From assembly GCA_015490805.1 (NCBI GenBank), contig WFXC01000033.1, positions 1 through 64,000 on the forward strand: a stretch of DNA of 64,000 nt, in the 5' to 3' direction. How positions within the stretch are numbered: position 1 is the first letter of the stretch; the number at the start of each line of letters is the position of its first letter. Shown here in pieces: positions 23,529 through 35,234 of this stretch. The translations under genes and the position numbers were made by a program. The notes under the pieces are model-generated. The model made no database searches, was not told the origin of the DNA, and was given only the letters and a program-made list of their open reading frames with translations. This DNA is from Candidatus Kapaibacterium sp. (GTDB taxonomy: Bacteria; Bacteroidota; Ignavibacteria; Kapaibacteriales; WFXC01).

Positions 23529-24431
23529 ATGAAACGCTTTGTATCCTGGCTTTTTGTTTTCAGTGTGATTGGTATCCTAATCTCTGCTACATCCTGTGAC
23601 TCTCGTGCTCCTATTTCTGTCGATTTTAATCCTCTTGATAGCATTGATCATCGTCGTGATAGTACAGGCTCTGGAGGATCCGGAGGAAATGATTCAACGA
23701 TCTGTTTCGAACGCGATATCCTTCCAATCTTCCTTGCCAACTGCGCAATGAGTGGCTGCCACGACGCCCAGAGCCACGAAGACGGATATATCTTAACCAG
23801 CTACGAAACCATTACCGCTAAAGGAATCGTTCCATATGAACCCAACCGAAGCGAAATTTACAAAGTTCTTATCGGTCAAGGGGAAAACACTATTGGCGTT
23901 TCCCCGTGGCTTACACTTCGCCGCGACGACGATGAAGAAGACGACGAAGACGATGATGGATATGACGACGAGTACGACGACGATGGCGATGATGAAGGTG
24001 ATGATGATTACCGAATGCCCCCTCCTCCATATCCACCACTGTCCCAAGACAAAATTGATTTGATTTATCGATGGATTGCTGAAGGAGCTCAAAATACCCA
24101 ATGTGATTCCACTGGTGGAGACAGCAGTGGTGATGATTGCGATACACTGAACATGAGTTATGCTCAAGACATTCAACCGATCCTTTCTACTAACTGCGTG
24201 GGTTGCCATTCCTCCAGCGCACCGTCAGGTGGTATCGTACTGGATAACTACAACAGTGTCAAGAGTGTTGCCAGCAGTGGACGTCTCTATGGAAGCGTTG
24301 CTCATTTAGCAGGATATAAGCCTATGCCTCCTGAGGAACAATTGGACAATTGTTCGATTCTCAAAATCAAAGCCTGGATCGACCAAGGAACACCTCCAAT
24401 GTCATTTCATTTTGTCCACGATCCAGAATAA
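23529..24431 (+). CDS. Exported c-type cytochrome-like protein with polyacidic linker, 300 aa
   Basis: The N-terminus (MKRFVSWLFVFSVIGILI, then SATSCDS) looks like a lipoprotein signal. Two haem-binding-type segments are present. Near residue 75 there is CAMSGCH, a C-x4-CH variant common in Bacteroidota proteins of this type. Near residue 223 there is a canonical CVGCH. Between them (about residues 135-160) is a run of ~25 residues that are mostly Asp and Glu with a few Tyr and Gly. The motif ILPIFLANC and its repeat IQPILSTNC mark the two domains as duplicates. A periplasmic or surface electron-transfer role is inferred; the partner is unknown. It is preceded by a 266-bp gap and followed by a strong terminator. 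Confidence 0.75.
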   Translation: MKRFVSWLFVFSVIGILISATSCDSRAPISVDFNPLDSIDHRRDSTGSGGSGGNDSTICFERDILPIFLANCAMSGCHDAQSHEDGYILTSYETITAKGIVPYEPNRSEIYKVLIGQGENTIGVSPWLTLRRDDDEEDDEDDDGYDDEYDDDGDDEGDDDYRMPPPPYPPLSQDKIDLIYRWIAEGAQNTQCDSTGGDSSGDDCDTLNMSYAQDIQPILSTNCVGCHSSSAPSGGIVLDNYNSVKSVASSGRLYGSVAHLAGYKPMPPEEQLDNCSILKIKAWIDQGTPPMSFHFVHDPE

Positions 24432-24543: not shown

Positions 24544-26763
24544 TTACTGCATAGACATTTGCACCCTTCCCCGAACAGTCACGTAAACGTTCCGACCAGG
24601 CGCGGGAAGATCGTTCCAATCAGAAAACCGATGATACTGCTGATCGAAAACATTCGCAACGCCCAAAGCGACGTACATTTCTCGTAACATTTGCCAGCCT
24701 GCCTCCACATCCCATACCATATAACCAGGATCCGGGGTCTCCCCTGCCCACCGAGCAACTTGCCTGTTTGCTACAGCCATTTCTCCCTGTACTTCAATCC
24801 ACCAGGGCTTAGGCTGATAGCGCACAACTGTTCGCAATGTCCACGGAGACATTGCAGGCAATGGCAGTCCATCGCTCCGCTGTCCTGTTTCTGCCTTGAG
24901 AATGCAACCAGTAGTGAGCCCTGACAGCACCTCAAACCAACCTGCAAGACTCAAGCCCAGGTTCCACGCTGTTCCTGCATTCCTATACTGTTTCACACCC
25001 TTGGATCCGATCGTCATTGGCGGTATATCAATTCGGGATGCAGCAACGTATTGCATAAACCAGTTTCCATAGATCATAGCGACCACTGTTCCATTTTTTC
25101 GAGCATAGGAAACGTGTGCGTTCAGATACCACCGCTGCTCTGGTTGCAATCGGGGATTCCCAAGATAATCATATCCATCTTGTGACTGGAACAGATAAAA
25201 GCCGTACAACTCGCTTTGATGCAATAGGCGTTGCTGATAGAGCAGTTGCAATGAAGTCTCTACAGCTTCGAGAATTTTACCCTCCAGAGCAATGCCTCCG
25301 CTCCAGGCATACTGGAAACGCTCTGGCGAAAAATCCCCGACCAATCCCTGCAACACTGCGATTTCATCCGCTCGTTGCAACCGGGTTTGTGCCACTGAAA
25401 TTTCTACGTGGGGAATGAACGTTCCCCAGCTAGCAATGGGCACGTAGGATTGTCCCACCACACTCCAGACAGAACGCGACATCTCGGGCCACGTTGGCAT
25501 CCACATCGGCGTTGCATCCGGGGCATACATTACCATTTCAGCGTGCACGTATTCTGACCGGTACTCGGTCGCAACCTTTGTCGGGATTCCGGCGATGGTT
25601 GAATGGAGGGTCAATTTACCACCAAGCACCCGGGTATGTCCCGGCATATCCATATGAACAGGCACTTGGCGCTTCCAATCATCCATATAATGATCGACCC
25701 GGCTGCCAAAGACCTGGAAAACTGCTTCCCGCAACCAGGTCTGGTGGACAGGCTTGTACTGCAAAGCGAGATTTCCCAATCGCAATCGGTCGTACCGGGT
25801 ATCCATTGGCAACGCTGCAAATCCAATATCATAACCGTCATCCCCGATGAAAACGCCGGACAGTCTGAACTGAGGACTCAGTTGTGCAATACCGTGAATG
25901 CGGTAATTCCACTTGCGGAATCCTGAGGGATCGATCAATTCTCCCCCACCGGCGCGATAATTCGCCGCCCGGCGATAGGTTCCATCAACAATGAAACCCA
26001 GTGTCGGCGACTGATATTGCGACCGAACGTACGCTCGCACCTCGCGATTGACACTCCCATACGACAGTTGCCCTGTCCACATCGTCTGCTTCGGTCCCAT
26101 CCGTGGAGAATCTGGAATGAAATGGACCATAGCAAATTCCCCTCCAGACTGTGCAAACTGCACAGCAACATTTTGAAGCGCCTCTGGCTCAACATACGTA
26201 TTGGCTGGATCCATATGATCCGTACAGGCTGGTAACACCGGTACATCCGCAATGCGGAATTCATACCGCTTCATTCCCATTCCCTGAACCAGCGGTTCAC
26301 CTGCCATTGCAGCTCGCCGCTGAATGGAAATCTGTGGCAGAAATGCCAGATATTGATCAATAGACCGAGGACTCAAACGAAGCAGGTTTTGCTCGTACTG
26401 CTCGCGGGCTGAGCGGTAGCTGCTGATTACTATGTTTTGCAATAACAGCGGTTGACTCACCAGAGACACTGACACCCAAAGCGTATCTCCAGTGACCGTC
26501 ACCTGCGATTGCCACGGACGGTATCCCAGTTTCCGCACAGCAAGCAAGAGTTGCGGTCGCCGGGGCGTGTAACGAACTATTAGCTTTCCATGGCTATCCG
26601 TCACCCCAACCGCAATAGAATCAACGGAACAAATGGCGCCGGGAACCGGTCGTTGTGTCTCAACGTCCTGAACCTGCCACACAATGGAAATTTGCTGAGC
26701 CGATGTTGTAACTGATAGTACCACACTGAACACCGTTATTATCATCCCCACCTTTTGCATCAT
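24544..26763 (-). CDS. TonB-dependent outer-membrane receptor, OprC/NosA-like (copper), 739 aa
   Basis: Outer-membrane active-uptake receptor. After the signal peptide (VGMIITVFSVVLSVTTSAQQ) comes a carboxypeptidase-like regulatory domain (~residues 25-110), a plug, and a 22-strand-type barrel. The plug contains PACTDHMDPANTYVEPEAL, resembling the HMxPPxxYIxP segment of OprC/NosA copper receptors. The start at 26763 is chosen because GGAGGG lies just upstream; an in-frame ATG at 26778 would place the RBS inside the gene. It is downstream of a Met-rich YtkA-like lipoprotein (63-78 bp) and near the nos cluster, both of which support copper as substrate. The function is inferred, and other metal ligands are possible. 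Confidence 0.72.
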   Translation of the reverse strand: MMQKVGMIITVFSVVLSVTTSAQQISIVWQVQDVETQRPVPGAICSVDSIAVGVTDSHGKLIVRYTPRRPQLLLAVRKLGYRPWQSQVTVTGDTLWVSVSLVSQPLLLQNIVISSYRSAREQYEQNLLRLSPRSIDQYLAFLPQISIQRRAAMAGEPLVQGMGMKRYEFRIADVPVLPACTDHMDPANTYVEPEALQNVAVQFAQSGGEFAMVHFIPDSPRMGPKQTMWTGQLSYGSVNREVRAYVRSQYQSPTLGFIVDGTYRRAANYRAGGGELIDPSGFRKWNYRIHGIAQLSPQFRLSGVFIGDDGYDIGFAALPMDTRYDRLRLGNLALQYKPVHQTWLREAVFQVFGSRVDHYMDDWKRQVPVHMDMPGHTRVLGGKLTLHSTIAGIPTKVATEYRSEYVHAEMVMYAPDATPMWMPTWPEMSRSVWSVVGQSYVPIASWGTFIPHVEISVAQTRLQRADEIAVLQGLVGDFSPERFQYAWSGGIALEGKILEAVETSLQLLYQQRLLHQSELYGFYLFQSQDGYDYLGNPRLQPEQRWYLNAHVSYARKNGTVVAMIYGNWFMQYVAASRIDIPPMTIGSKGVKQYRNAGTAWNLGLSLAGWFEVLSGLTTGCILKAETGQRSDGLPLPAMSPWTLRTVVRYQPKPWWIEVQGEMAVANRQVARWAGETPDPGYMVWDVEAGWQMLREMYVALGVANVFDQQYHRFSDWNDLPAPGRNVYVTVRGRVQMSMQ

Positions 26764-26841
26764 CCTTTCCCTCCGCATTTGAAACTATCTGCCTTCTCCC
26801 GAGAACTGCCCTGCCAGGTACCGAGAGGGCAGCCTTAACTT

Positions 26842-27651
26842 TTAAAAGGTCACAGGAAAATCGACTTTGCCAATGTGAACGCCATCCCGATAAAATGCCG
26901 TGTGAATCACCCAATCGCCGGTCATTGTAAAGTTGACCTTGCCCTGATACCGACCCTTCCGGATATGGACCGGATTCTGATTATTCGGCGATCCATGGCC
27001 CATCGAAGGCATCTCTGGCTCAATCTCAATGGATAAATCCGTAACAGGCTCAAAACGGTGCATCACCTTCCGATACACAAACAGATCGAAATCATTCAAT
27101 CCTACCTCTGGATTGGATATATGTAATGCAGCGATAATTTTCGCACTGTCCAGGGCAGAAATAAAAGCTTTGACCCGTTCGGCATAATACACTTCTATCG
27201 GTAAAGTCAGGTCCAGCGTATCCTGTCCAATGGTTCCAGTGAGATGGACTGTCCAATCGCCCATTTTATCGCCGCCCGGACTGTAAGTCGCCATTACCCA
27301 TACGAGGTGCACCTGATACCCCTGGAGCTGAGCATCCCAGAATAGCGTATCGATGGGGGTGGAATGCGACATTCCACCTTGCATCGCCATTTCAGGCTCA
27401 AACTGCAAATTCGAAACCTGAACATATTGCCCGTTGTGCTTGACCGTGATTAACAATTCCGCATATCCAGCACGCAATGTATCGTGAGCATAGATGGCTA
27501 CCTCACCCCACGCTGTCTGCTGGCGAGCCACCACCAGCGAAAAAGATTGCCCCTGGTCATTCTGATCATCCGGTGTTGTGGGATTAGAGGTCTCGCACCC
27601 ACTCTGGATCAACAACACAAAGATTGCCAGGAGGAAAATCGTATATTTCAT
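26842..27651 (-). CDS. Lipoprotein with two YtkA/FixH-like domains, methionine-rich, 269 aa
   Basis: The N-terminus MKYTIFLLAIFVLLIQSGC is a lipoprotein signal (lipobox QSGC). The body seems to contain two similar beta-sandwich halves. Each has a copper-site-like stretch: FEPEMAMQGGMSHSTPID in the first and IEIEPEMPSMGHGSPNN in the second, followed by GDWTVHLTG and GDWVIHTAF respectively. The E-x-M...M-x-H pattern is typical of YtkA-like domains found with copper oxidases and copper trafficking. It precedes the TonB receptor on the same strand. I infer a periplasmic or surface copper-binding role, passing metal between the receptor and the nos machinery. Confidence 0.7.
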   Translation of the reverse strand: MKYTIFLLAIFVLLIQSGCETSNPTTPDDQNDQGQSFSLVVARQQTAWGEVAIYAHDTLRAGYAELLITVKHNGQYVQVSNLQFEPEMAMQGGMSHSTPIDTLFWDAQLQGYQVHLVWVMATYSPGGDKMGDWTVHLTGTIGQDTLDLTLPIEVYYAERVKAFISALDSAKIIAALHISNPEVGLNDFDLFVYRKVMHRFEPVTDLSIEIEPEMPSMGHGSPNNQNPVHIRKGRYQGKVNFTMTGDWVIHTAFYRDGVHIGKVDFPVTF

Positions 27652-27740
27652 TGTTGGTTTCTCCAGATTTTGTGGAACTTTCTCTTACCATTTTAGAATT
27701 TTTGAGAATCCTCATCGTTAAGAATTCTGCTGCTACCGGC

Positions 27741-27868
27741 ACTTCAGGACAGAACACTGCTCCGCCCTGAAGTCCTGCATACTTACCTTCAGGCTCCCTT
27801 CTTCCAGCGCATCATTGCGCTGCCGCACTTTGTCAGTGCACTATAAAGGGCAGCACCCAAATGCTGCT
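27741..27868 (-). ncRNA. Candidate structured leader: four consecutive hairpins
   Basis: A 128-bp non-coding stretch lies 90-217 nt upstream of the YtkA-like gene, on its strand. Stems are GCAGCA/TGCTGC (27850-27867), GCACT/AGTGC (27825-27839), CAGCGCA/TGCGCTG (27805-27822, 4-base loop) and ACTTCAGG/CCTGAAGT (27741-27773, 17-base loop). None is followed by a T-tract. It could be a cis-regulatory RNA of the copper genes, the 3' end of the nos transcript, or a set of chance or remnant palindromes. Confidence 0.35.
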
Positions 27869-27909
27869 GAGAGTATCAGTGGATAATTTTGCTCTGGCAG
27901 TGAGTCTTT

Positions 27910-28284
27910 TTAGAAATTTGGAGGATGGTCAATTCCCGGGGGGTGTCCCTCAAGGAGGGCATATATTTCGGCAAACAACATCGCTACCACTATCTGCACA
28001 AGCGGTTGGAACGCCTTCAACCTTTCCACTATAGCGATGATCTGCTCCAGATTCTGGAGGAAATGGACAACGGTTCTCGACTGCGTATCCACAGGATCTG
28101 GCGGCTGCGTAATTTTCCGCACAAAACATTTGCCGTGGCAACTGGGATCCTTAACAGTATTTACACAATAGGTCCGGGCAATCTGATCTTCCCACACCCA
28201 ATAGGCAACCCATCCCAACGATGGCGCCAGTAAATACACCGCTACATTCACTAAGATAGCACTATGGAGCAAGCGGCGTCCCAT
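27910..28284 (-). CDS. Small membrane protein with CHGKC-type Cys/His motif, nos-associated, 124 aa
   Basis: Length and topology: a short hydrophobic helix at about 9-32 and a second at about 92-110. Between them lies the motif YCVNTVKDPSCHGKCFV, with Cys40, Cys49, His50 and Cys53. Similar small Bacteroidota proteins with C-x(8)-C-x-G-K-C segments occur near copper and TonB genes, which suggests metal binding at the outer face of the membrane (family knowledge plus inference). The start codon directly follows the nosY stop (TAAATG), so it is the last gene of the nos operon. The opposite-strand frame over the same region lacks coding character. Confidence 0.65.
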   Translation of the reverse strand: MGRRLLHSAILVNVAVYLLAPSLGWVAYWVWEDQIARTYCVNTVKDPSCHGKCFVRKITQPPDPVDTQSRTVVHFLQNLEQIIAIVERLKAFQPLVQIVVAMLFAEIYALLEGHPPGIDHPPNF

Positions 28285-29073
28285 TTAAAAATCCCGATGG
28301 GCAAATCGTTTCAATCCCACAAAAACAGGAATGCTGACCCACAACAACAAGGCGCCTAAAGCCAGACTGATGCCCAATGATGTTCCGAAAAATTCCCGAA
28401 ATACCGCCCCTGTATACCCCATCAATGCAGACACATCCAGTTGGAGCAACAAAGCAACCCGTCCCAGATCCACAGGATTCAAAAACATTGCAGCAATGAG
28501 CGGTTGTTCCAGTGGATAATCCCGAAAAACCGTTGCTAAGTAAAGCACCACTGCATCATAGACAACGGTGAGCGCCAGCCACAGCAGCAATGCAAGGCTC
28601 ATCCCCACCGTCCGCTCTTCAGCGAAAATAGCAAACATCATCCCCAGCGACAAAAAGATCAGGATCAGCGCTGTTCCGACAATAAACAACGTTCCAAAAG
28701 CGCCGGCATAGCCTGCCCAACTACCAAAGACAAGGAAGGGTAAAAGCACGCCCAGAACAAAAGACGCGACAAATGGGGCTACAATACCCAACCACATCCC
28801 TCCATACAGCTCTGATCGGTAGATCGGTTGAGTCAACATCAACTCAATAAAGGAAGTGGCATTATACACATAAAACACCCCAAACAGCACGCTAAGGAGA
28901 GGAAGGAATATCAATGTGACGTTGAGCAAACTGACCAAAACCTTTGCCTCATTCTCTCCAAAATAAAACAATACAGCGGTCAGGAAGAAGAACAACGCAA
29001 AGACGACAAATACCCACCGAGTTCGCAAAACATTGAAAAATTGATATTTGGCAATTTTCAACGTATTGCTCAT
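28285..29073 (-). CDS. nosY: NosY-like ABC transporter permease, 262 aa
   Basis: Integral membrane partner of the NosF ATPase. The NosDFY complex is needed to build the copper-sulfide centre of nitrous oxide reductase. Six membrane helices are visible (VFVVFALFFFLTAVLFYF; LLNVTLIFLPLLSVLFGVFYVY; and later ones). The N-terminal LKIAKYQFFNVLRTRWV segment and MLTQPIYRSELYGGMWLGI are typical of NosY. It overlaps nosF by 4 bp. Length is normal (~270). Confidence 0.92.
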   Translation of the reverse strand: MSNTLKIAKYQFFNVLRTRWVFVVFALFFFLTAVLFYFGENEAKVLVSLLNVTLIFLPLLSVLFGVFYVYNATSFIELMLTQPIYRSELYGGMWLGIVAPFVASFVLGVLLPFLVFGSWAGYAGAFGTLFIVGTALILIFLSLGMMFAIFAEERTVGMSLALLLWLALTVVYDAVVLYLATVFRDYPLEQPLIAAMFLNPVDLGRVALLLQLDVSALMGYTGAVFREFFGTSLGISLALGALLLWVSIPVFVGLKRFAHRDF

Positions 29074-29786
29074 CCTTCTACGCCGCTATATTGCAACACT
29101 TCAGCAATTGCTTCTTCCAGATTTTTCGTCCCGGTACGATCGATCAACACTTGTTTTGCTTCCTTGAACAATAATTTCCCATCCAGCAAGAAAATCACAT
29201 CGTCGGCTAAAGCAGCAATCTCCGGTAGAATATGAGAAGTAAAAATGATTGTTTTACCCTGTTGTTTTTCTTTTTGGATTTTCTTCTTCAAAATCAAACT
29301 AGCAACTGGATCCAGCCCCACCGTCGGTTCATCCAGCACATAAATTTGCGGTTGAAATAAGAACGCCAGATAGGCATTCAGCTTCTGGCGCGTTCCCCCG
29401 GACAATTCCTTGCTCTTTTTTGTTAATTCCCGGTCCAGGTGAAATTGCTCGAACAACTCTTCATCGTAATGCGTCACATCGGAGCGAATATCTTTCATCA
29501 TTCGGATGATCTCCCCAACAGTAAGATGCTCCGGGAACTGAGCAATTTGGGGCATATACCCTATTTGTTGCCGATACTCTGGATGTGCATTCACCCGATG
29601 ATCGGCAAGAAGAATATCGCCTGAATCGGGATGGACCAATCCCAGTAAGCATTTCAACAATGTCGTCTTCCCCGATCCATTGGGTCCCAAAATTGCTGTA
29701 ATCCGTCCCGCCTCAATTGAGACCGTGATATCTTTTAATGCGTGAAGCTGTCCATAGCGCTTCGATATGTTGAGAAACTGGATCAT
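29070..29786 (-). CDS. nosF: NosF ABC transporter ATP-binding protein, 238 aa
   Basis: Cytoplasmic ATPase of the NosDFY complex. Motifs: Walker A ILGPNGSGKTT (about residues 33-43), signature LSGGTRQKLNAYLAF, Walker B IYVLDEPTVGLDP and the H-switch FTSHILPE. Without context it could be any gliding/multidrug-type ATPase; the neighbours nosD and nosY decide the assignment. Its start codon abuts the nosD stop codon, and it overlaps nosY. Confidence 0.93.
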   Translation of the reverse strand: MIQFLNISKRYGQLHALKDITVSIEAGRITAILGPNGSGKTTLLKCLLGLVHPDSGDILLADHRVNAHPEYRQQIGYMPQIAQFPEHLTVGEIIRMMKDIRSDVTHYDEELFEQFHLDRELTKKSKELSGGTRQKLNAYLAFLFQPQIYVLDEPTVGLDPVASLILKKKIQKEKQQGKTIIFTSHILPEIAALADDVIFLLDGKLLFKEAKQVLIDRTGTKNLEEAIAEVLQYSGVEG

Positions 29787-31037
29787 TCAGAACACCACTT
29801 TCTGCAACAATGGATACCGGTCCACTAATGTTTCAGGAGTTAAGACGGGGAATACTTGCTCAGCGATTTCAAGCAGATCGATCAAGAAACCGCGAAGCAA
29901 AATAAGTAATGGGGGATTTTGCTGCACCAGCAATGAAAATAGGCGGACTGGATGATATGGAACATCTCCGATACCATCCCCATCTAAGTCATATCCCTTG
30001 TACTGATCCCAGAAATTATATGCAAAACGATTAAAATTCTGCCGGCTATTGGTACTGACATCAAAGCTATTGCCGATAAACGAATTGTGGTGGATGTACA
30101 AACCTTCCGAATTTGCCATCACGATCATTGCCCACCCATTTTGCTGGAAGAGATTACTGTCAATTTCAATCCGGGAAGATCCCTCACTATGAATCCCTAC
30201 AGTATTGCGAATAAATCGATTAAAGCGAATGCGACTATCGGAAATTTCTTTCAACAGCAATCCATACGACGAAGGTCCCCAATTATACGCAAAAACATTC
30301 CGTTCCATCAAGACTCGCCGGGTATACATTACAGCAACACCAGCACCGTTTCGCCGGAAGGTATTCCACCGGTACTGGCAGGAATCGGAAAACATAAAGT
30401 GTAATCCATATCGCAGGTTTTGTTCACTGAGATTGTGTTCAATAAGAGAACTTTGCACAAACTCAAAATAAATTCCATCCCGATGTCCTCGGATACGATT
30501 ATTCCGAATGATCATTCCCTTGCAATACCATAGGTGAATTCCATTGCCAGAAACCGCTTCTCGCACACTATGCGCAATCAGCGTGTTGTTCTGAATGATA
30601 CAGAAAGCCGACTCTGCGGCATAGATTCCGAAGAAGTTATCCAGCAAAATGCAAGAATCCACAACACAATGTTGCACCTTCTCCAGCCGAATGGCAGCAT
30701 TGTCCTGCATAAAACTCACCCCAGCACGCTGTACCACGATCTTTCGGATCACCACAGAGTCGGCTTCAACGACAAACACTTCTGTTTGCCCTGCGCCATC
30801 GACCACAGGATTACCTTGCCCAACGATCGTCAATCGCTTCTTTACGTGAATAGGACCTTCAGCGTAATGACCAGCCGTAATGAGGATCGTATCTCCGGCT
30901 GCCGCCGCTGCGATAGCAGCTTTGATACTGGAATACTCTTCACCTACCACTAGCCGGGCAGCCTGTGCACTTTCTGGCGCTAACGCGATCAACAATGCTA
31001 TGGAAAAAAGCCATCTCACCGTTGTTCCAACTTCCAT
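29787..31037 (-). CDS. nosD: NosD copper-site maturation protein, parallel beta-helix, 416 aa
   Basis: Periplasmic protein required for assembly of the CuZ centre of NosZ. The start at 31037 gives MEVGTTVRWLFSIALLIALA and a cleavage site after AQA; an in-frame start at 31070 adds 11 residues and no signal. The body is a run of ~24-residue right-handed beta-helix turns (I-x-N-N-x-I-x-x-H-x-x-G-I). The pattern IRNNRIRGHRDGIYFEFVQSS, followed by GLHFMFSDSCQYRWN, matches the NosD family. It overlaps the end of nosL by 22 bp. Confidence 0.93.
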   Translation of the reverse strand: MEVGTTVRWLFSIALLIALAPESAQAARLVVGEEYSSIKAAIAAAAAGDTILITAGHYAEGPIHVKKRLTIVGQGNPVVDGAGQTEVFVVEADSVVIRKIVVQRAGVSFMQDNAAIRLEKVQHCVVDSCILLDNFFGIYAAESAFCIIQNNTLIAHSVREAVSGNGIHLWYCKGMIIRNNRIRGHRDGIYFEFVQSSLIEHNLSEQNLRYGLHFMFSDSCQYRWNTFRRNGAGVAVMYTRRVLMERNVFAYNWGPSSYGLLLKEISDSRIRFNRFIRNTVGIHSEGSSRIEIDSNLFQQNGWAMIVMANSEGLYIHHNSFIGNSFDVSTNSRQNFNRFAYNFWDQYKGYDLDGDGIGDVPYHPVRLFSLLVQQNPPLLILLRGFLIDLLEIAEQVFPVLTPETLVDRYPLLQKVVF

Positions 31038-31492
31038 TGTTCTGCGACCAATGCAACGACCTGGGGCCACTGGAGAATTTCCCCATCATATTGTTTTTGC
31101 AGTCGCAATGCCTGTGCTTCTGTCGATACCGCCAACAGCGACATTCCCATTGGACTTCGAATCTGCGGCGAATGGAGATAAAATGCACTTTCTGCTGGAA
31201 CAAACTTATCAAGTTCCTCAAAATCCACTACCCACATTGATTGGATCTGATCTTTTGGAATTTTGTTGGTATAAACAAACGCCGCCAGACATTCAATCGC
31301 ATCAAAAGGATAAATTTTCCCTTTTGTGGTAATGAGCTCAGCCCCAAACTTGGGATCACTCACCACCATTGAACAATAGGCACATTGCTCCTGTCCCAAC
31401 TGGAGCGGGCGGGGCTTATGAGCACCACAGCCAGCGAAAAGCAATGCCAAAATCACCAAGCTAAAACCATATAGCCTGAGTGCCCGCATCAT
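31016..31492 (-). CDS. nosL: NosL copper chaperone lipoprotein, 158 aa
   Basis: Outer- or inner-membrane-anchored Cu(I) chaperone that delivers copper to NosZ through NosDFY. The start at 31492 gives MMRALRLYGFSLVILALLFAGC, a lipoprotein signal with lipobox FAGC; a longer frame to 31603 runs back into the upstream gene and is rejected. The copper motif EQCAYCSMVVSDPKFGAEL follows directly, with the family signature CxYCxM, and FDAIECLAAFV and the C-terminal SPMGMSLLAV segment complete the NosL domain. It lies 4 bp after the preceding membrane protein. Confidence 0.93.
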   Translation of the reverse strand: MMRALRLYGFSLVILALLFAGCGAHKPRPLQLGQEQCAYCSMVVSDPKFGAELITTKGKIYPFDAIECLAAFVYTNKIPKDQIQSMWVVDFEELDKFVPAESAFYLHSPQIRSPMGMSLLAVSTEAQALRLQKQYDGEILQWPQVVALVAEQWKLEQR

Positions 31493-31496
31493 TGTC

Positions 31497-32180
31497 TCAC
31501 GCCACTTTCGCTGTCGCTGCTGAACGCTGCGTTGGAAAATTCCGGGATATCCCTGCCGTTGCCGCTGCACGCTTTCGATCGATAAGCAATGCGAGCACCC
31601 CAAGGAGTATACCAGCGATGATCAGATAAGTACCCCAATATGGCAGCGACGTAGCAGTAATATTGAGCAATTGTTTGGTGCCAAGCAGTGGCGGCTGGTA
31701 ACTCATTCCCGGAATCTTGATGGGGGCGTTCGGATTCAAATTATGTCCGTAATCATACTCCCATTTCCAGAAATCGTAGATACCTAAAATCGCAGCAACC
31801 AGCGTCAAACCGATCCAGGTTGCTACCAACTTTCGATTGCCAACAATTGCCGCTATGAGTCCCAGCACAACTAATGCCACAACAATCCAGGGCATAATAT
31901 CAAATTCCGGAATTGCATGAGGATCAATTTTATCCATCCCGATATAGTGATTCAACGTGTTGATATTTTCCAGATCGTTCGGCTTTTCCCCCGTAATATG
32001 ATTGACCCAGATATACATCCCCAATCCTTCAGGGTACTGCGGGGCATCCAGGCTGATTTTCCAGATGGGCAATATGAATACTCCAAGGTATAACAATGCT
32101 CCAACAGCAACCAGAATTCGGCTTCCTATTCCCATTTTTTGTTGTCCTGCCATCGCTCTGTCCTTTCTTTCCATCCACAT
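31497..32180 (-). CDS. Nos-cluster membrane protein of unknown function, 227 aa
   Basis: Four to five membrane helices are predicted (ILVAVGALLYLGVFILPIW, IMPWIVVALVVLGLIAAIVG, WIGLTLVAAILGIYDFW, WGTYLIIAGILLGVLALLI). A long loop contains YPEGLGMYIWVNHITGEKPNDLENINTLNHYIGM, rich in His and Asn. Similar membrane proteins sit between nosZ and nosL in clade II nos clusters of Bacteroidota, and their role is not established. The C-terminus is basic and Ala/Thr-rich. The start at 32180 may be 27 bp too early; ATG 32153 (MAGQQKMGIG) is an alternative. It is in the middle of the operon, so a part in NosZ maturation or electron supply is inferred. Confidence 0.72.
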   Translation of the reverse strand: MWMERKDRAMAGQQKMGIGSRILVAVGALLYLGVFILPIWKISLDAPQYPEGLGMYIWVNHITGEKPNDLENINTLNHYIGMDKIDPHAIPEFDIMPWIVVALVVLGLIAAIVGNRKLVATWIGLTLVAAILGIYDFWKWEYDYGHNLNPNAPIKIPGMSYQPPLLGTKQLLNITATSLPYWGTYLIIAGILLGVLALLIDRKRAAATAGISRNFPTQRSAATAKVA

Positions 32181-32237: not shown

Positions 32238-34214
32238 TTACTGCCCTGACTCGCCTTCCTTATAGGTCCCATACGAAATCTTGACACTGGCATTCCGCGG
32301 CGAGACCCGGATATATCCCTGCATTTCCTGGTGTAATGCAGAGCAGAAATCGGTACAATAGAACGGATAGACACCCGGTTTCTTTGGCTCCCACACCAGA
32401 GTCTTCGTTTGCCCTGGCATTACCAATATCTCCGCATTATTTGCTCCGATGATTGCAAATCCGTGTGGGATATCCCAATCCTGTTCCAGATTAGTCACGT
32501 GGAAATACACTTTATCGCCTACTTTGACTCCCTCGATATTATCAGGAGTAAAGTGGCTGCGGATAGCGGTCATATAAATATGGACTTCGTTTCCCTGCCG
32601 CTCAACACGGGCTTCCTTCTCACTCTTTGCCGCATATGGGTGTTGATTTTCTTCCAGCTTAAAAATCTTTGCGGATCTTTTCATTAGGATTTCCGCTGGA
32701 ATCGCCTGAGCATAATGAGGTTCACCCAGTGTTGGAAAGTCCAACAGCAGCTTCATCTTATCTCCACTAATGTCAATCAACTGTGCTGCGTGGCACAGCT
32801 CCGGTCCGGTAGGTAGATAGCGGTCTTTCGTAATTTTGTTTAATGCGATAACATATTTTCCCCAGGGCTTCCTACTATCACCACCAGGGATGCACAGATG
32901 ACCAACTGAGTAATAAACTGGGATACGGTCCACGACTTCCCAGGTTCCCAGTTTCCACTTCACAATTTCAGAAGAAATAAACGCGGTTGTATAAGCGTAT
33001 CCCTTCCCATCAAACTCAGTGTGCAGGGGTCCCAGTCCTGGATTTTCTACTTCACCCGCGATTATCGCTTCATACTTCAAAACAGGAATACCATCAACCT
33101 CTCCTTCGAACTCCTGATTCTCAATCGCCTTCAGCATCTTAGAAAAGGAGTGCACAGGAATCACGGTCGCTAACTTTCCACCGGCGACAATGTACTCGCC
33201 ACTCGGATCCACGTCAACACCGTGTGGTGACTTTGGCGTGGGTAGGTAATAAATCAGTCCCGGGCAGTCCTTGGGATACAGAACCTTAACTTTGGTTCGC
33301 TTATGCGCTGTTGCTGTATGTGTCTTATCATCATACTCGTTGTTGTAGTATACAACCTCTTCCTCTACATACTTACCCTGCTTGAGGTACTCTTCTGCTT
33401 TCTTCCAATTCACTGCTGCAATAAAGTCTTTGTCTTTCCGCGAGGCGTTGATCTCCAGCAAGGAATACGCCTGCTCGGTATTATAGGACGTGAAGAAAAC
33501 CCATCCGTGAGACGGTCCCTTTCCAGCATGCGCCAGGTCATAATCATATCCCGGTACTCGAATCTGGAATGCCAAATCCATATCACCCGTTTCTGGATCA
33601 ACGGAAATAAAGCTGATAGTAGCCCCAAAGTGCTTTTTGTACTCAGAAATCGGAACATCACGCTGGGGAATTGGCACTGCAAAACGGGTCGATGCAACCA
33701 CGTACTCTGTGTTCTGTGTTACAAACGGTGAAGCATGATTTCCTGCTGAATTCGGCAACTCAATAATTTCCACAGTTTCAAAAGTCCGGAGATCGATTCG
33801 AGCGACCCGCGGCGTATTGTTAGCATTGATGAAAAGCCACCGTCCATCTGGCACCCCATCGGTCTGAGAAAGTTCCGGGTGGTGCGAATCATCCCAGGGA
33901 ACAAATCCGTGAGAAGTCATCAACATCGGTTTGGTTTCTTCGGAATAACCATACCCATTCTCCGGATATTGCGAAAATACTGGGATGATCTTGAACAACC
34001 GACCGGAAGGCAATCCATGAACAGCAACTTGTCCACTAAACCCTCCTGACATAAACGCATAAAATTCATCGTATTGGCCAGGCGGCACATAGACCCGCGA
34101 AGCGACGTCACTGGAACTCTTCGTTACTTGCTGCTGCTGTGAACAATAGCTAAGTCCACCAACCAGCGCGATGATAACGCCCAAACCCATCAGGATGCGG
34201 AAGGAACGTTTCAT
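32238..34214 (-). CDS. nosZ: Nitrous oxide reductase, Sec-dependent (clade II), 658 aa
   Basis: Periplasmic or membrane-attached copper enzyme that reduces N2O to N2, the last step of denitrification. The signal peptide (MKRSFRILMGLGVIIALVGG) lacks a twin arginine motif, as in clade II; the cysteine after LSY is not a standard lipobox. The N-terminal beta-propeller holds CuZ histidines in DSHHPELSQTDG, NHASPF, SPHGVDVDPSGEYI, GPLHTEFDG, GHLCIPGG, CHAAQ and EPHYAQ. The C-terminal cupredoxin domain holds the CuA ligands Cys620, Cys624, His628 and Met631 (CTDFCSALHQEM). All expected ligands are present, so the enzyme looks active. Confidence 0.97.
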   Translation of the reverse strand: MKRSFRILMGLGVIIALVGGLSYCSQQQQVTKSSSDVASRVYVPPGQYDEFYAFMSGGFSGQVAVHGLPSGRLFKIIPVFSQYPENGYGYSEETKPMLMTSHGFVPWDDSHHPELSQTDGVPDGRWLFINANNTPRVARIDLRTFETVEIIELPNSAGNHASPFVTQNTEYVVASTRFAVPIPQRDVPISEYKKHFGATISFISVDPETGDMDLAFQIRVPGYDYDLAHAGKGPSHGWVFFTSYNTEQAYSLLEINASRKDKDFIAAVNWKKAEEYLKQGKYVEEEVVYYNNEYDDKTHTATAHKRTKVKVLYPKDCPGLIYYLPTPKSPHGVDVDPSGEYIVAGGKLATVIPVHSFSKMLKAIENQEFEGEVDGIPVLKYEAIIAGEVENPGLGPLHTEFDGKGYAYTTAFISSEIVKWKLGTWEVVDRIPVYYSVGHLCIPGGDSRKPWGKYVIALNKITKDRYLPTGPELCHAAQLIDISGDKMKLLLDFPTLGEPHYAQAIPAEILMKRSAKIFKLEENQHPYAAKSEKEARVERQGNEVHIYMTAIRSHFTPDNIEGVKVGDKVYFHVTNLEQDWDIPHGFAIIGANNAEILVMPGQTKTLVWEPKKPGVYPFYCTDFCSALHQEMQGYIRVSPRNASVKISYGTYKEGESGQ

Positions 34215-34272: not shown

Positions 34273-34794
34273 TTATTTTTTCTGTTGATGTACCCATCGT
34301 AAATACTCTAGAACAGCCCGTGCATCTTCAACACTAAGATTCTGGAATGTCATAACTGTAAGATACTCTGCTAACAACTTCTTGGCTACCGGATGCCGCT
34401 TGATCATCTCATCTGGATTCAGCATCATATTCATTACAAACTCCGGAGTTCGGTGCTCCAGCACATCTCGCAGTGGTGGTCCGACTCGCCGACTATCCAA
34501 CTCGTGGCACGCACTGCACTTCATCTCAAAAATTTTCTTTCCTTTTTCTACTAGTTTAGGATCAATCTCTCCCAAGGTAAGCTTTTCTCTAATAGGACCA
34601 ATACCGTGCTTCAATTCAAACTCGGACAATCCCTCTGAATTTGCTGCATCTGATAGGTCACTCTTTTGTGCGCCTTGCTGTACCATCTGAGATTTCGCTC
34701 CTCGCTCTCCTGCTGGCGTAGCATCGTTACTACATCCGCTCCACCAAAGCCCTCCAAGAAGCAACAGAACAATAAACACAACAAATCGACTCAT
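34273..34794 (-). CDS. Lipoprotein cytochrome c, probable electron donor to NosZ, 173 aa
   Basis: Monohaem c-type cytochrome anchored by a lipid. The start at 34794 gives MSRFVVFIVLLLLGGLWWSGC (lipobox WSGC). The ATG overlaps the stop codon of the preceding rrf2 gene by one base (TGATG), which supports this start and translational coupling. The haem site is CSACH in the segment KGKKIFEMKCSACHELDSR. The Met ligand is likely in LTVMTFQNLS. Between the anchor and the haem is a ~55-residue Gln/Ser/Ala-rich linker. Clade II nos clusters commonly carry a cytochrome c upstream of nosZ, so donation to CuA is inferred. Confidence 0.87.
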   Translation of the reverse strand: MSRFVVFIVLLLLGGLWWSGCSNDATPAGERGAKSQMVQQGAQKSDLSDAANSEGLSEFELKHGIGPIREKLTLGEIDPKLVEKGKKIFEMKCSACHELDSRRVGPPLRDVLEHRTPEFVMNMMLNPDEMIKRHPVAKKLLAEYLTVMTFQNLSVEDARAVLEYLRWVHQQKK

Positions 34795-35234
34795 CAGATA
34801 TTCTCCTCTTTTGTTTGAACTGCTCCACGTTTCCATTGTTTCGCTATCTCTGCAATACTTGTTTTTTGAAACAACCTAATCAGTTGCTCGCGAATCTTCA
34901 AATACCGCTTGTGAAATGTGCATCTCTCAAACTCTTCACACTGCGGTAATCCCAGAATGCACTCTACAAACCGCTTATCACCCTCAAAAGCCTGAATAAT
35001 ATCGTAAAGAGAAATCTGCGTCGGCGGTTTCCGAAAACGCATACCGCCCTTAATCCCGCGAGAAGTATCTACGATCCCGCTGCGTACCAGGCGCTTCACA
35101 ATTTTCGAAAGAAAATATACCGGTAATCCCAGCTCTGCCCCGATTTTACGGACTGGAAAGTATTGACTATTCTGCTTCTGACTTGCCATATATGCCAGCA
35201 TCTGAATAGCATACAGCGTTGCTTTTGAGAACAT
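34794..35234 (-). CDS. Rrf2-family transcriptional regulator with three cluster-type cysteines, 146 aa
   Basis: Winged-helix regulator of the IscR/NsrR family, first gene of the nos operon. Residues 1-60 form the DNA-binding domain (MFSKATLYAIQMLAYMA, then VRKIGAELGLPVYFLSKIVKRLVRSGIV). Cys92, Cys99 and Cys105 (ECILGLPQCEEFERC) match in position the three iron-sulfur cluster cysteines of IscR and NsrR. It probably senses NO, oxygen or iron-sulfur status and controls its own operon; the palindrome at 35257-35274 overlapping its -7 box is a good candidate operator. It could be NsrR-like, but an NO-specific assignment is not possible from sequence. Confidence 0.87.
   Translation of the reverse strand: MFSKATLYAIQMLAYMASQKQNSQYFPVRKIGAELGLPVYFLSKIVKRLVRSGIVDTSRGIKGGMRFRKPPTQISLYDIIQAFEGDKRFVECILGLPQCEEFERCTFHKRYLKIREQLIRLFQKTSIAEIAKQWKRGAVQTKEENI

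Follow-up and report, generated by a model that had tools for sequence, protein, structure and literature searches.

Nitrous oxide (N2O) reductase, NosZ, needs much copper and holds a CuA centre, and communities that run short of copper emit N2O as a result. The present work concerns three genes at the downstream end of a clade II nos gene cluster of Candidatus Kapaibacterium sp., located on a stretch of 64,000 nucleotides (nt) that is referred to as the window (assembly GCA_015490805.1, contig WFXC01000033.1, positions 1 to 64,000). The source assembly has a size of 2.67 Mb and is 97% complete. The genes encode a TonB-dependent receptor, a lipoprotein with two YtkA domains (YtkA2) and a small protein with the motif CHGKC, written CxGKC for its family. 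In the initial annotation, made from the sequence alone, they were read as a relay carrying copper from outside the cell to NosL and NosD.

Several described systems come close to these proteins. The motif CxxxM-HxM is the published copper site of the receptor OprC, and NosA of P. stutzeri has been linked to N2O reductase (PMC8610252). YtkA (CtaK) of Bacillus has been implicated in the assembly of the CuA centre (PMC13344008). In Bordetella pertussis, the leader protein CruR (DUF2946) is encoded before a TonB receptor gene; copper at its CXXC relieves an arrest at the C-terminal RAPP, after which Rho terminates, the spacing between Cys and Pro-Pro (PP) matters, and the rut site falls where the gene has an excess of C over G (PMC9426467). 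Rhodobacter has CutF, which senses copper while it is exported and is reported to be rapidly degraded afterwards. A rule-based survey gave 5,334 CutF-like proteins, many of them from Bacteroidota, and nearly 60% of those with gaps below 10 nt are reported to stand before a nosZ or NosR gene (PMC9973294). A survey of RAPP/RGPP leaders found none related to copper in Bacteroidota (PMC12992588).

We consider it probable that the locus is a copper-supply extension of the clade II nos operon, with CHGKC as a copper-sensing leader that stands outside the relay. The evidence is the gene order, the conserved residues and their spacing, a rut-like composition, the recurrence with nos and the ligand motifs of the receptor. 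The copper-supply reading is well supported for the receptor and the lipoprotein. Its sequence features make the CHGKC protein most probably a leader that responds to copper, and a Bacteroidota version of the nascent-chain regulators that sense this metal. The features of this part of the window are:

24544..26778, minus strand: OprC/NosA-like TonB-dependent receptor, 744 amino acids (aa), predicted copper importer; ligands C185 and M189 (CxxxM), H363 and M365 (HxM)
26842..27651, minus strand: two-domain YtkA lipoprotein (PF13115), 269 aa, predicted to bind copper as the partner of the receptor; M88, M90, H96 and M214, M217, H219, M243 are conserved
27652..27909, minus strand: strongly structured leader of 258 nt from the CHGKC stop to the lipoprotein start (fold z, congener alignment)
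27869..27928, minus strand: C-rich, G-poor (rut-like) stretch at the CHGKC gene end and the leader start (C-minus-G scan)
27910..28284, minus strand: CHGKC gene, 124 aa, predicted to encode a leader protein that senses copper and arrests its own translation (family alignments, near-terminal PP, Cys-to-PP spacing, neighbours)
27919-27924, minus strand: Pro-Pro codons of the CHGKC gene
28126-28167, minus strand: Cys motif codons of the CHGKC gene

The receptor and lipoprotein pair

Three open reading frames were confirmed at these positions, directly 3' of nosDFY, and the initial annotation was right in taking them for a set of true genes on one strand. The start of the CHGKC gene abuts the nosY stop (TAA-ATG), as it does in two congeners. 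The order of the trio was found again in genomes with 22-30% protein identity, which excludes chance.

Only OprC entries matched the receptor in the PDB (phmmer; 6fok, E = 5e-10). C185/M189 align with C143/M147 of OprC and H363/M365 with H323/M325, so that all four copper ligands of CxxxM-HxM are present. The TIGR01778 score of 75 bits lies below the equivalog cut-off of 472; by sequence the receptor is OprC-like, and an OprC equivalog is ruled out by the score. The N-terminus has a weak carboxypeptidase-regulatory-like match. A plasmid search with the receptor gave no match. Four receptor classes were observed among the family loci, two of copper type, one of siderophore type with PepSY_TM neighbours and one PqqU-like. 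CxxxM and HxM were both kept in 26/26 copper-type receptors of the two classes and in 0/17 of the siderophore-type and PqqU-like classes.

The two YtkA stretches of the lipoprotein were recognised by PF13115 with 56.3 bits against a gathering threshold of 25.9 (E = 5e-15), and Met/His motifs are conserved in each domain (family alignments A2 and A4). The AlphaFold2 (AF2) model, with a pLDDT of 87.8, has two beta domains. Structure matches were mostly generic Ig-like folds with low TM-score. CrdA of H. pylori (9ll2) was the only copper protein among the top structure matches (TM-score 0.65 over one domain) and also the best sequence match, at a non-significant E = 0.42. By analogy with CtaK and from its linkage to nos, the lipoprotein might serve the CuA site of NosZ.

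Genome samples comprised 119 genomes of the order and 396 of the phylum Bacteroidota; genome relatedness was left uncorrected in the association statistics. The lipoprotein family (A4) was found in 22 of the order genomes, in 13 of them in or beside the nos cluster. Across the phylum, YtkA2 was present in 49 genomes and nosZ in 130, with both in 29 (odds ratio 3.5, p = 6.5e-5), and the co-occurrence of the double-YtkA family with nosZ thus held. In 12 of these 29 genomes YtkA2 is located less than 10 kb from nosZ.

The position of the pair relative to nos varies. The f2 layout, seen in seven genomes (L156-L162, some of them truncated where the contig ends), is Rrf2-cytC-nosZ-membrane protein-nosL-YtkA2-receptor-nosD-nosF-nosY and almost gapless. 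In G014 and G058 the CxGKC gene precedes the YtkA2-receptor pair, and the set is found between nosL and nosD. The set is placed after nosY in f1 and f3 (G004), as is the pair in f25. G111 has the CxGKC gene and a second-class receptor between nosF and nosY, and in G142 the trio is divergent from cytC-nosZ. Finally, the pair is divergent from or convergent to the nos cluster in f35 (L185-L187) and divergent from the nosZ operon in f33. Because these arrangements differ, repeated attachment to nos is argued. No report of a YtkA2-receptor pair in nos clusters was found in literature searches.

It is possible, though we regard it as somewhat doubtful, that the lipoprotein is exposed on the cell surface as the capture protein of the receptor, comparable to HmuY or SusD, with no direct role in NosZ maturation; such a function would be compatible with a leader role of CHGKC. 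At nearly all loci examined, whether nos is present or not, the lipoprotein gene directly precedes that of the copper receptor. In several members the lipid cysteine is followed by acidic residues, which can signal surface export in Bacteroidota. The enrichment of the lipoprotein in nosZ genomes and its repeated embedding between nosL and nosD do not fit this explanation, nor does the presence of the CuA assembly factor CtaK in its family (PMC13344008). An unlikely explanation is that a general copper uptake set, supplying all cuproenzymes, came to stand beside nos by chance or through shared regulation. Stand-alone copies of the set do occur in G009, G017 and G024, genomes without a nosZ match, but the attachment to nos in several different arrangements and families, and the share of YtkA2 genes close to nosZ given above, argue against this explanation.

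The CHGKC family and its leader-type features

No Pfam or NCBIfam family was found for the CHGKC protein or its family. A scan of the contig collection with the protein matched two congeners only, and whole-genome profile searches were needed for the wider family, which was found in 37/119 order genomes with a first profile and in 162/396 phylum genomes with an extended profile. Among 44 diverse members only C40, C49, C53, P121 and P122 are invariant, and G51 is nearly so. The wide homologues and the five residues invariant among 44 sequences mark CHGKC as a true gene. In the window the protein has a hydrophobic N-terminal segment (residues 9-27), three cysteines in the motif C-x8-C-x-G-K-C and a PP two residues from the end of its 124 aa, and a gap of 258 nt separates its gene from the next on the same strand. 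The rules of the CutF-like survey on length (<150 aa), on a PP among the last 15 residues and on a same-strand gene at <1000 nt hold for it, and the family may already be in the published list, unnamed.

Of 66 non-redundant members, 64 have the PP at most 15 residues from the end, in most cases 2-4 residues before the stop. As controls, 4/362 other annotated proteins and 63/1351 uncurated open reading frames of similar length had a PP in the last 15 residues. The C-terminal proline motif is usually [PIV]F[HRQP]PP; neither RAPP nor RGPP was found in any family member. The distance from the third Cys to PP was 67.6 +/- 3.1 residues (61-74, n = 58), and the intervening sequence is scarcely conserved.

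At the level of the mRNA, positions 27869-27928 have the highest C-minus-G of all 60-nt stretches in the 10.3-kb nos-to-receptor strand. In 65 family genes the C-over-G of the gene end had a z of 1.8 vs -0.2 in controls (p = 8e-30). Pro and other codons explain part of this bias; the excess survived a synonymous-codon control (p = 1e-6) and was also observed in the 60 nt after the stops (p = 2e-4). A rho gene is present. The leader region 27630-27930 is strongly structured (fold z = -3.3), the 258-nt leader has a mean column identity of 88% among three congeners, and segments able to pair in two mutually exclusive ways exist. A conserved RNA switch in the leader is at most a possibility, as the three close sequences give almost no covariation. 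A scan of the region for sigma-70-type promoters gave fewer matches than shuffles and was uninformative.

The nearest recognised downstream gene was of copper type (YtkA2, copper-type receptor or MbnP) for 39 members, a siderophore-type receptor, several with PepSY, for 15 and a PqqU-like receptor for 7. The cysteines were kept in 39/39, 15/15 and 0/7 of these groups, respectively (copper-type vs PqqU-like, Fisher p = 2e-8). From this split, the near-terminal PP and the position appear constant, and the cysteines track cargo of metal type. Iron or nickel as the metal of CHGKC, the alternative named in the initial annotation, is disfavoured by the copper-type and PqqU-like groups; for the 15 cysteine members before siderophore-type receptors, several of which have PepSY partners, another metal is possible.

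Cysteine-less relatives with the same C-terminal PP head the PqqU-like TonB receptor genes (L019, L096, L098, L107, L114, L116, L118) and could be leaders that sense another cargo. Further CxGKC genes stand at the head of MbnP-MbnH (kynurenine copper-site) clusters (L018, L021, L093, L101, L168), some of which have a further outer-membrane-like protein with ICGCG. In L018 the MbnP-MbnH set adjoins nosZ, and in L093 it joins YtkA2 and a copper receptor.

The suggestion that the CHGKC protein is itself a nos factor was not upheld. nosZ was present in 53/162 family-positive vs 77/234 family-negative phylum genomes (odds ratio 0.99, p = 1), and this equal frequency with and without nosZ, an outcome that the initial annotation had itself named as refuting, rules out a nos-specific factor. 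The association of presence at order level was weak (p = 0.12, or 0.05 if two genomes with contigs ending before nosZ are counted as nos-positive). Physical linkage of CxGKC and nos in the order is above chance: the gene was found in or within about 15 kb of nos in G000-G002, G034, G058, G111, G016, G036 and G042, to which G004 and G014, with contigs ending before nosZ, were added.

A relay of all three proteins, with CHGKC as a membrane-anchored periplasmic carrier acting through its three cysteines, is improbable. Three conserved cysteines do follow a hydrophobic segment, and the recurrent neighbours are copper proteins. However, a carrier leaves the near-terminal PP and the C-rich mRNA end unexplained, as well as the kept length between the last Cys and PP in a sequence that is hardly conserved. 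The AF2 model of CHGKC has no confident fold past the N-terminal helices (pTM 0.38), the cysteine-less relatives retain both the PP and the place before a receptor gene, and nos-attached pairs exist without a CHGKC gene. What remains of the proposed relay is the copper-type pair of receptor and double-YtkA lipoprotein, recurring in or beside nos; its CHGKC link is given up. Least probable of all is a CutF-like mode, in which copper slows the export or translation of the leader, opens a hairpin hiding the start of the next gene and so activates: the family follows most of the CutF-like rules and the leader is strongly structured, but activation by copper makes little sense for downstream uptake genes, the leader of 258 nt is long, and the ribosome-binding region of the lipoprotein gene lies in no strong hairpin of the predicted fold.

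With CHGKC as a copper-sensing leader, the locus could work as follows. Copper would cross the outer membrane via the receptor, and the double-YtkA lipoprotein would accept or present it as a Met/His carrier and hand it towards NosL/NosD and perhaps also towards the CuA site of NosZ. The CHGKC protein would be inserted during synthesis through its N-terminal hydrophobic segment. When the ribosome is at the prolines, the reach of about 68 residues from Cys to PP would put the cysteines past the ribosome tunnel and probably the translocon, and hence periplasmic copper would be sensed, as in CutF. At little copper the ribosome would stall at HPP and shield the C-rich stretch, and RNA polymerase would continue past nosY and transcribe the genes of the lipoprotein and the receptor. 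Once the three cysteines carry copper, the pause would be lifted, Rho would terminate in the leader, and copper import would end. That copper represses is suggested by the cargo, which consists of import genes, and by the precedent of CruR.

Several points weigh against CHGKC as a leader of the nos operon. Some f2-family clusters have the lipoprotein and the receptor without a CxGKC gene; since such nos-attached pairs exist, the sensor would be optional. Presence of the family is untied to nosZ in the phylum. Two of the 66 members have no PP in the last 15 residues, and the proline tail of CutF alone is no strong stall sequence (PMC9973294). The proline motif, [PIV]F[HRQP]PP and never RAPP or RGPP, is a predicted arrest motif. 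Profile kinship with DUF2946-like proteins of the same order was negligible, with an hhalign probability of 0.3%. The leader RNA of the three close sequences has almost no covariation, and a promoter inside the 258-nt leader is possible. Co-transcription, arrest, copper binding, the direction of control, Rho action, termination and delivery to NosZ are steps that we infer.

With rather less confidence than for the locus itself, we incline to a wider explanation. Across Bacteroidota, a family of copper-sensing nascent-chain regulators unrelated in sequence to CruR, with their own sensor (C-xn-C-x-G-K-C) and their own arrest motif ([PIV]F[HRQP]PP), may gate copper import. Here, one nos transcript would serve both N2O reductase synthesis and copper acquisition, gated by periplasmic copper, and the cysteine-less members would serve another cargo.

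Other genes of the nos cluster

The order on the minus strand is Rrf2-type regulator, cytochrome c lipoprotein, nosZ, multi-transmembrane protein, nosL, nosD, nosF, nosY, CHGKC gene, YtkA lipoprotein and receptor. The genes upstream of the trio are:

28285..29073, minus strand: nosY, ATP-binding cassette (ABC) permease (PF12679; position and family-wide synteny)
29070..29786, minus strand: nosF, ABC ATPase (PF00005)
29787..31070, minus strand: nosD (TIGR04247, 421 bits, above the cut-off)
31016..31492, minus strand: nosL (PF05573, E = 7e-13); the likely start is the ATG at 31492, and the listed open reading frame opens at an upstream TTG
31497..32180, minus strand: multi-transmembrane protein between nosZ and nosL, no family match in Pfam or NCBIfam, which from its position we take to be NosB-like
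32238..34214, minus strand: nosZ, clade II (Sec-dependent) N2O reductase (TIGR04246, 979 bits)
34273..34836, minus strand: cytochrome c lipoprotein, member of the conserved nos cluster (synteny)
34794..35234, minus strand: Rrf2-type regulator heading the cluster, assigned by eye; homologues head related nos clusters

NosL is fused to the multi-transmembrane protein in several relatives, for example at L087:5494-6618 and L166:12411-13412. These fusions suggest that the protein works directly with NosL in copper delivery. A lipobox-like N-terminus was found by pattern match only in 31 of 47 clade II NosZ sequences of the order, counting the window and related loci, and a Tat-like one in 0. The N2O reductase of the order may therefore be a membrane-anchored lipoprotein. 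The nosZ of congener G001 (L002:2058-4047) is broken into two overlapping frames, which is probably an assembly error. A plus-strand gene at 23529-24431, convergent with the receptor gene, encodes a lipoprotein that combines a long Asp-rich linker with two stretches resembling PSCyt1 (planctomycete cytochrome c).

Comparison with known systems

For the copper acquisition of clade II organisms and for a CuA loader, the pair is a concrete candidate that is repeatedly attached to nos. A copper-sensing leader, if true, would explain a large uncharacterised family present in 162 of the 396 sampled Bacteroidota genomes, would extend copper control through the ribosome to a phylum in which surveys based on RAPP found no case, and would give a direct switch between copper supply and N2O respiration.

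The receptor of the window shares the CxxxM-HxM copper site with OprC/NosA and differs in its distance (75 vs 472 bits), its weak carboxypeptidase-regulatory-like N-terminus and its partner lipoprotein. Similarly, the lipoprotein resembles YtkA/CtaK of Bacillus and CrdA of H. pylori in its YtkA domain (PF13115), CrdA-like fold and Met-rich motif. The difference is that two YtkA domains stand in tandem in one lipoprotein, beside an OprC-like receptor and nos.

In common with the CutF-like proteins (R. capsulatus cutFOG), CHGKC has fewer than 150 aa, an N-terminal hydrophobic segment, a PP in the last 15 residues and a same-strand gene within 1000 nt, and many Bacteroidota proteins as well as nos-linked cases figure in the published list (PMC9973294). 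CutF, however, acts positively and on a copper oxidase. The upstream open reading frames for RAPP/RGPP arrest peptides likewise encode small proteins with a C-terminal PP, which are exported, as is predicted for CHGKC, and they are placed before TonB, PepSY and copper genes (PMC12992588), whereas neither motif is found in the CHGKC family, which would explain the gap in Bacteroidota left by that survey.

Identity of CHGKC with DUF2946/CruR was rejected by Pfam (no PF11162), motif, spacing and hhalign. Genes that do resemble DUF2946, with CXXC and RAPP at a spacing of 45-47 residues, were observed in the same order before other TonB receptor genes (L176, L177, L178, L181); by sequence these would be CruR-like leaders in Bacteroidota. 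CruR (PF11162; B. pertussis cruR-bfrG/crtA-bp2921) is nevertheless close to CHGKC in design. Both stand first before a TonB receptor gene (and PepSY), with an export signal, putative in CHGKC, a cysteine metal motif, a Pro-Pro few residues from the end, a conserved Cys-to-PP spacing, a C-over-G rut region and a long leader (PMC9426467). They differ in the sensor, CxnCxGKC with three cysteines vs CXXC, in the end motif, [PIV]F[HRQP]PP vs RAPP, in the Cys-to-PP distance, about 68 vs 45 residues, and in the position of CHGKC after nosY inside an operon. As judged from features that can be tested in the sequence, the CHGKC family would thus resemble CruR and CutF in its manner of working while standing outside DUF2946.

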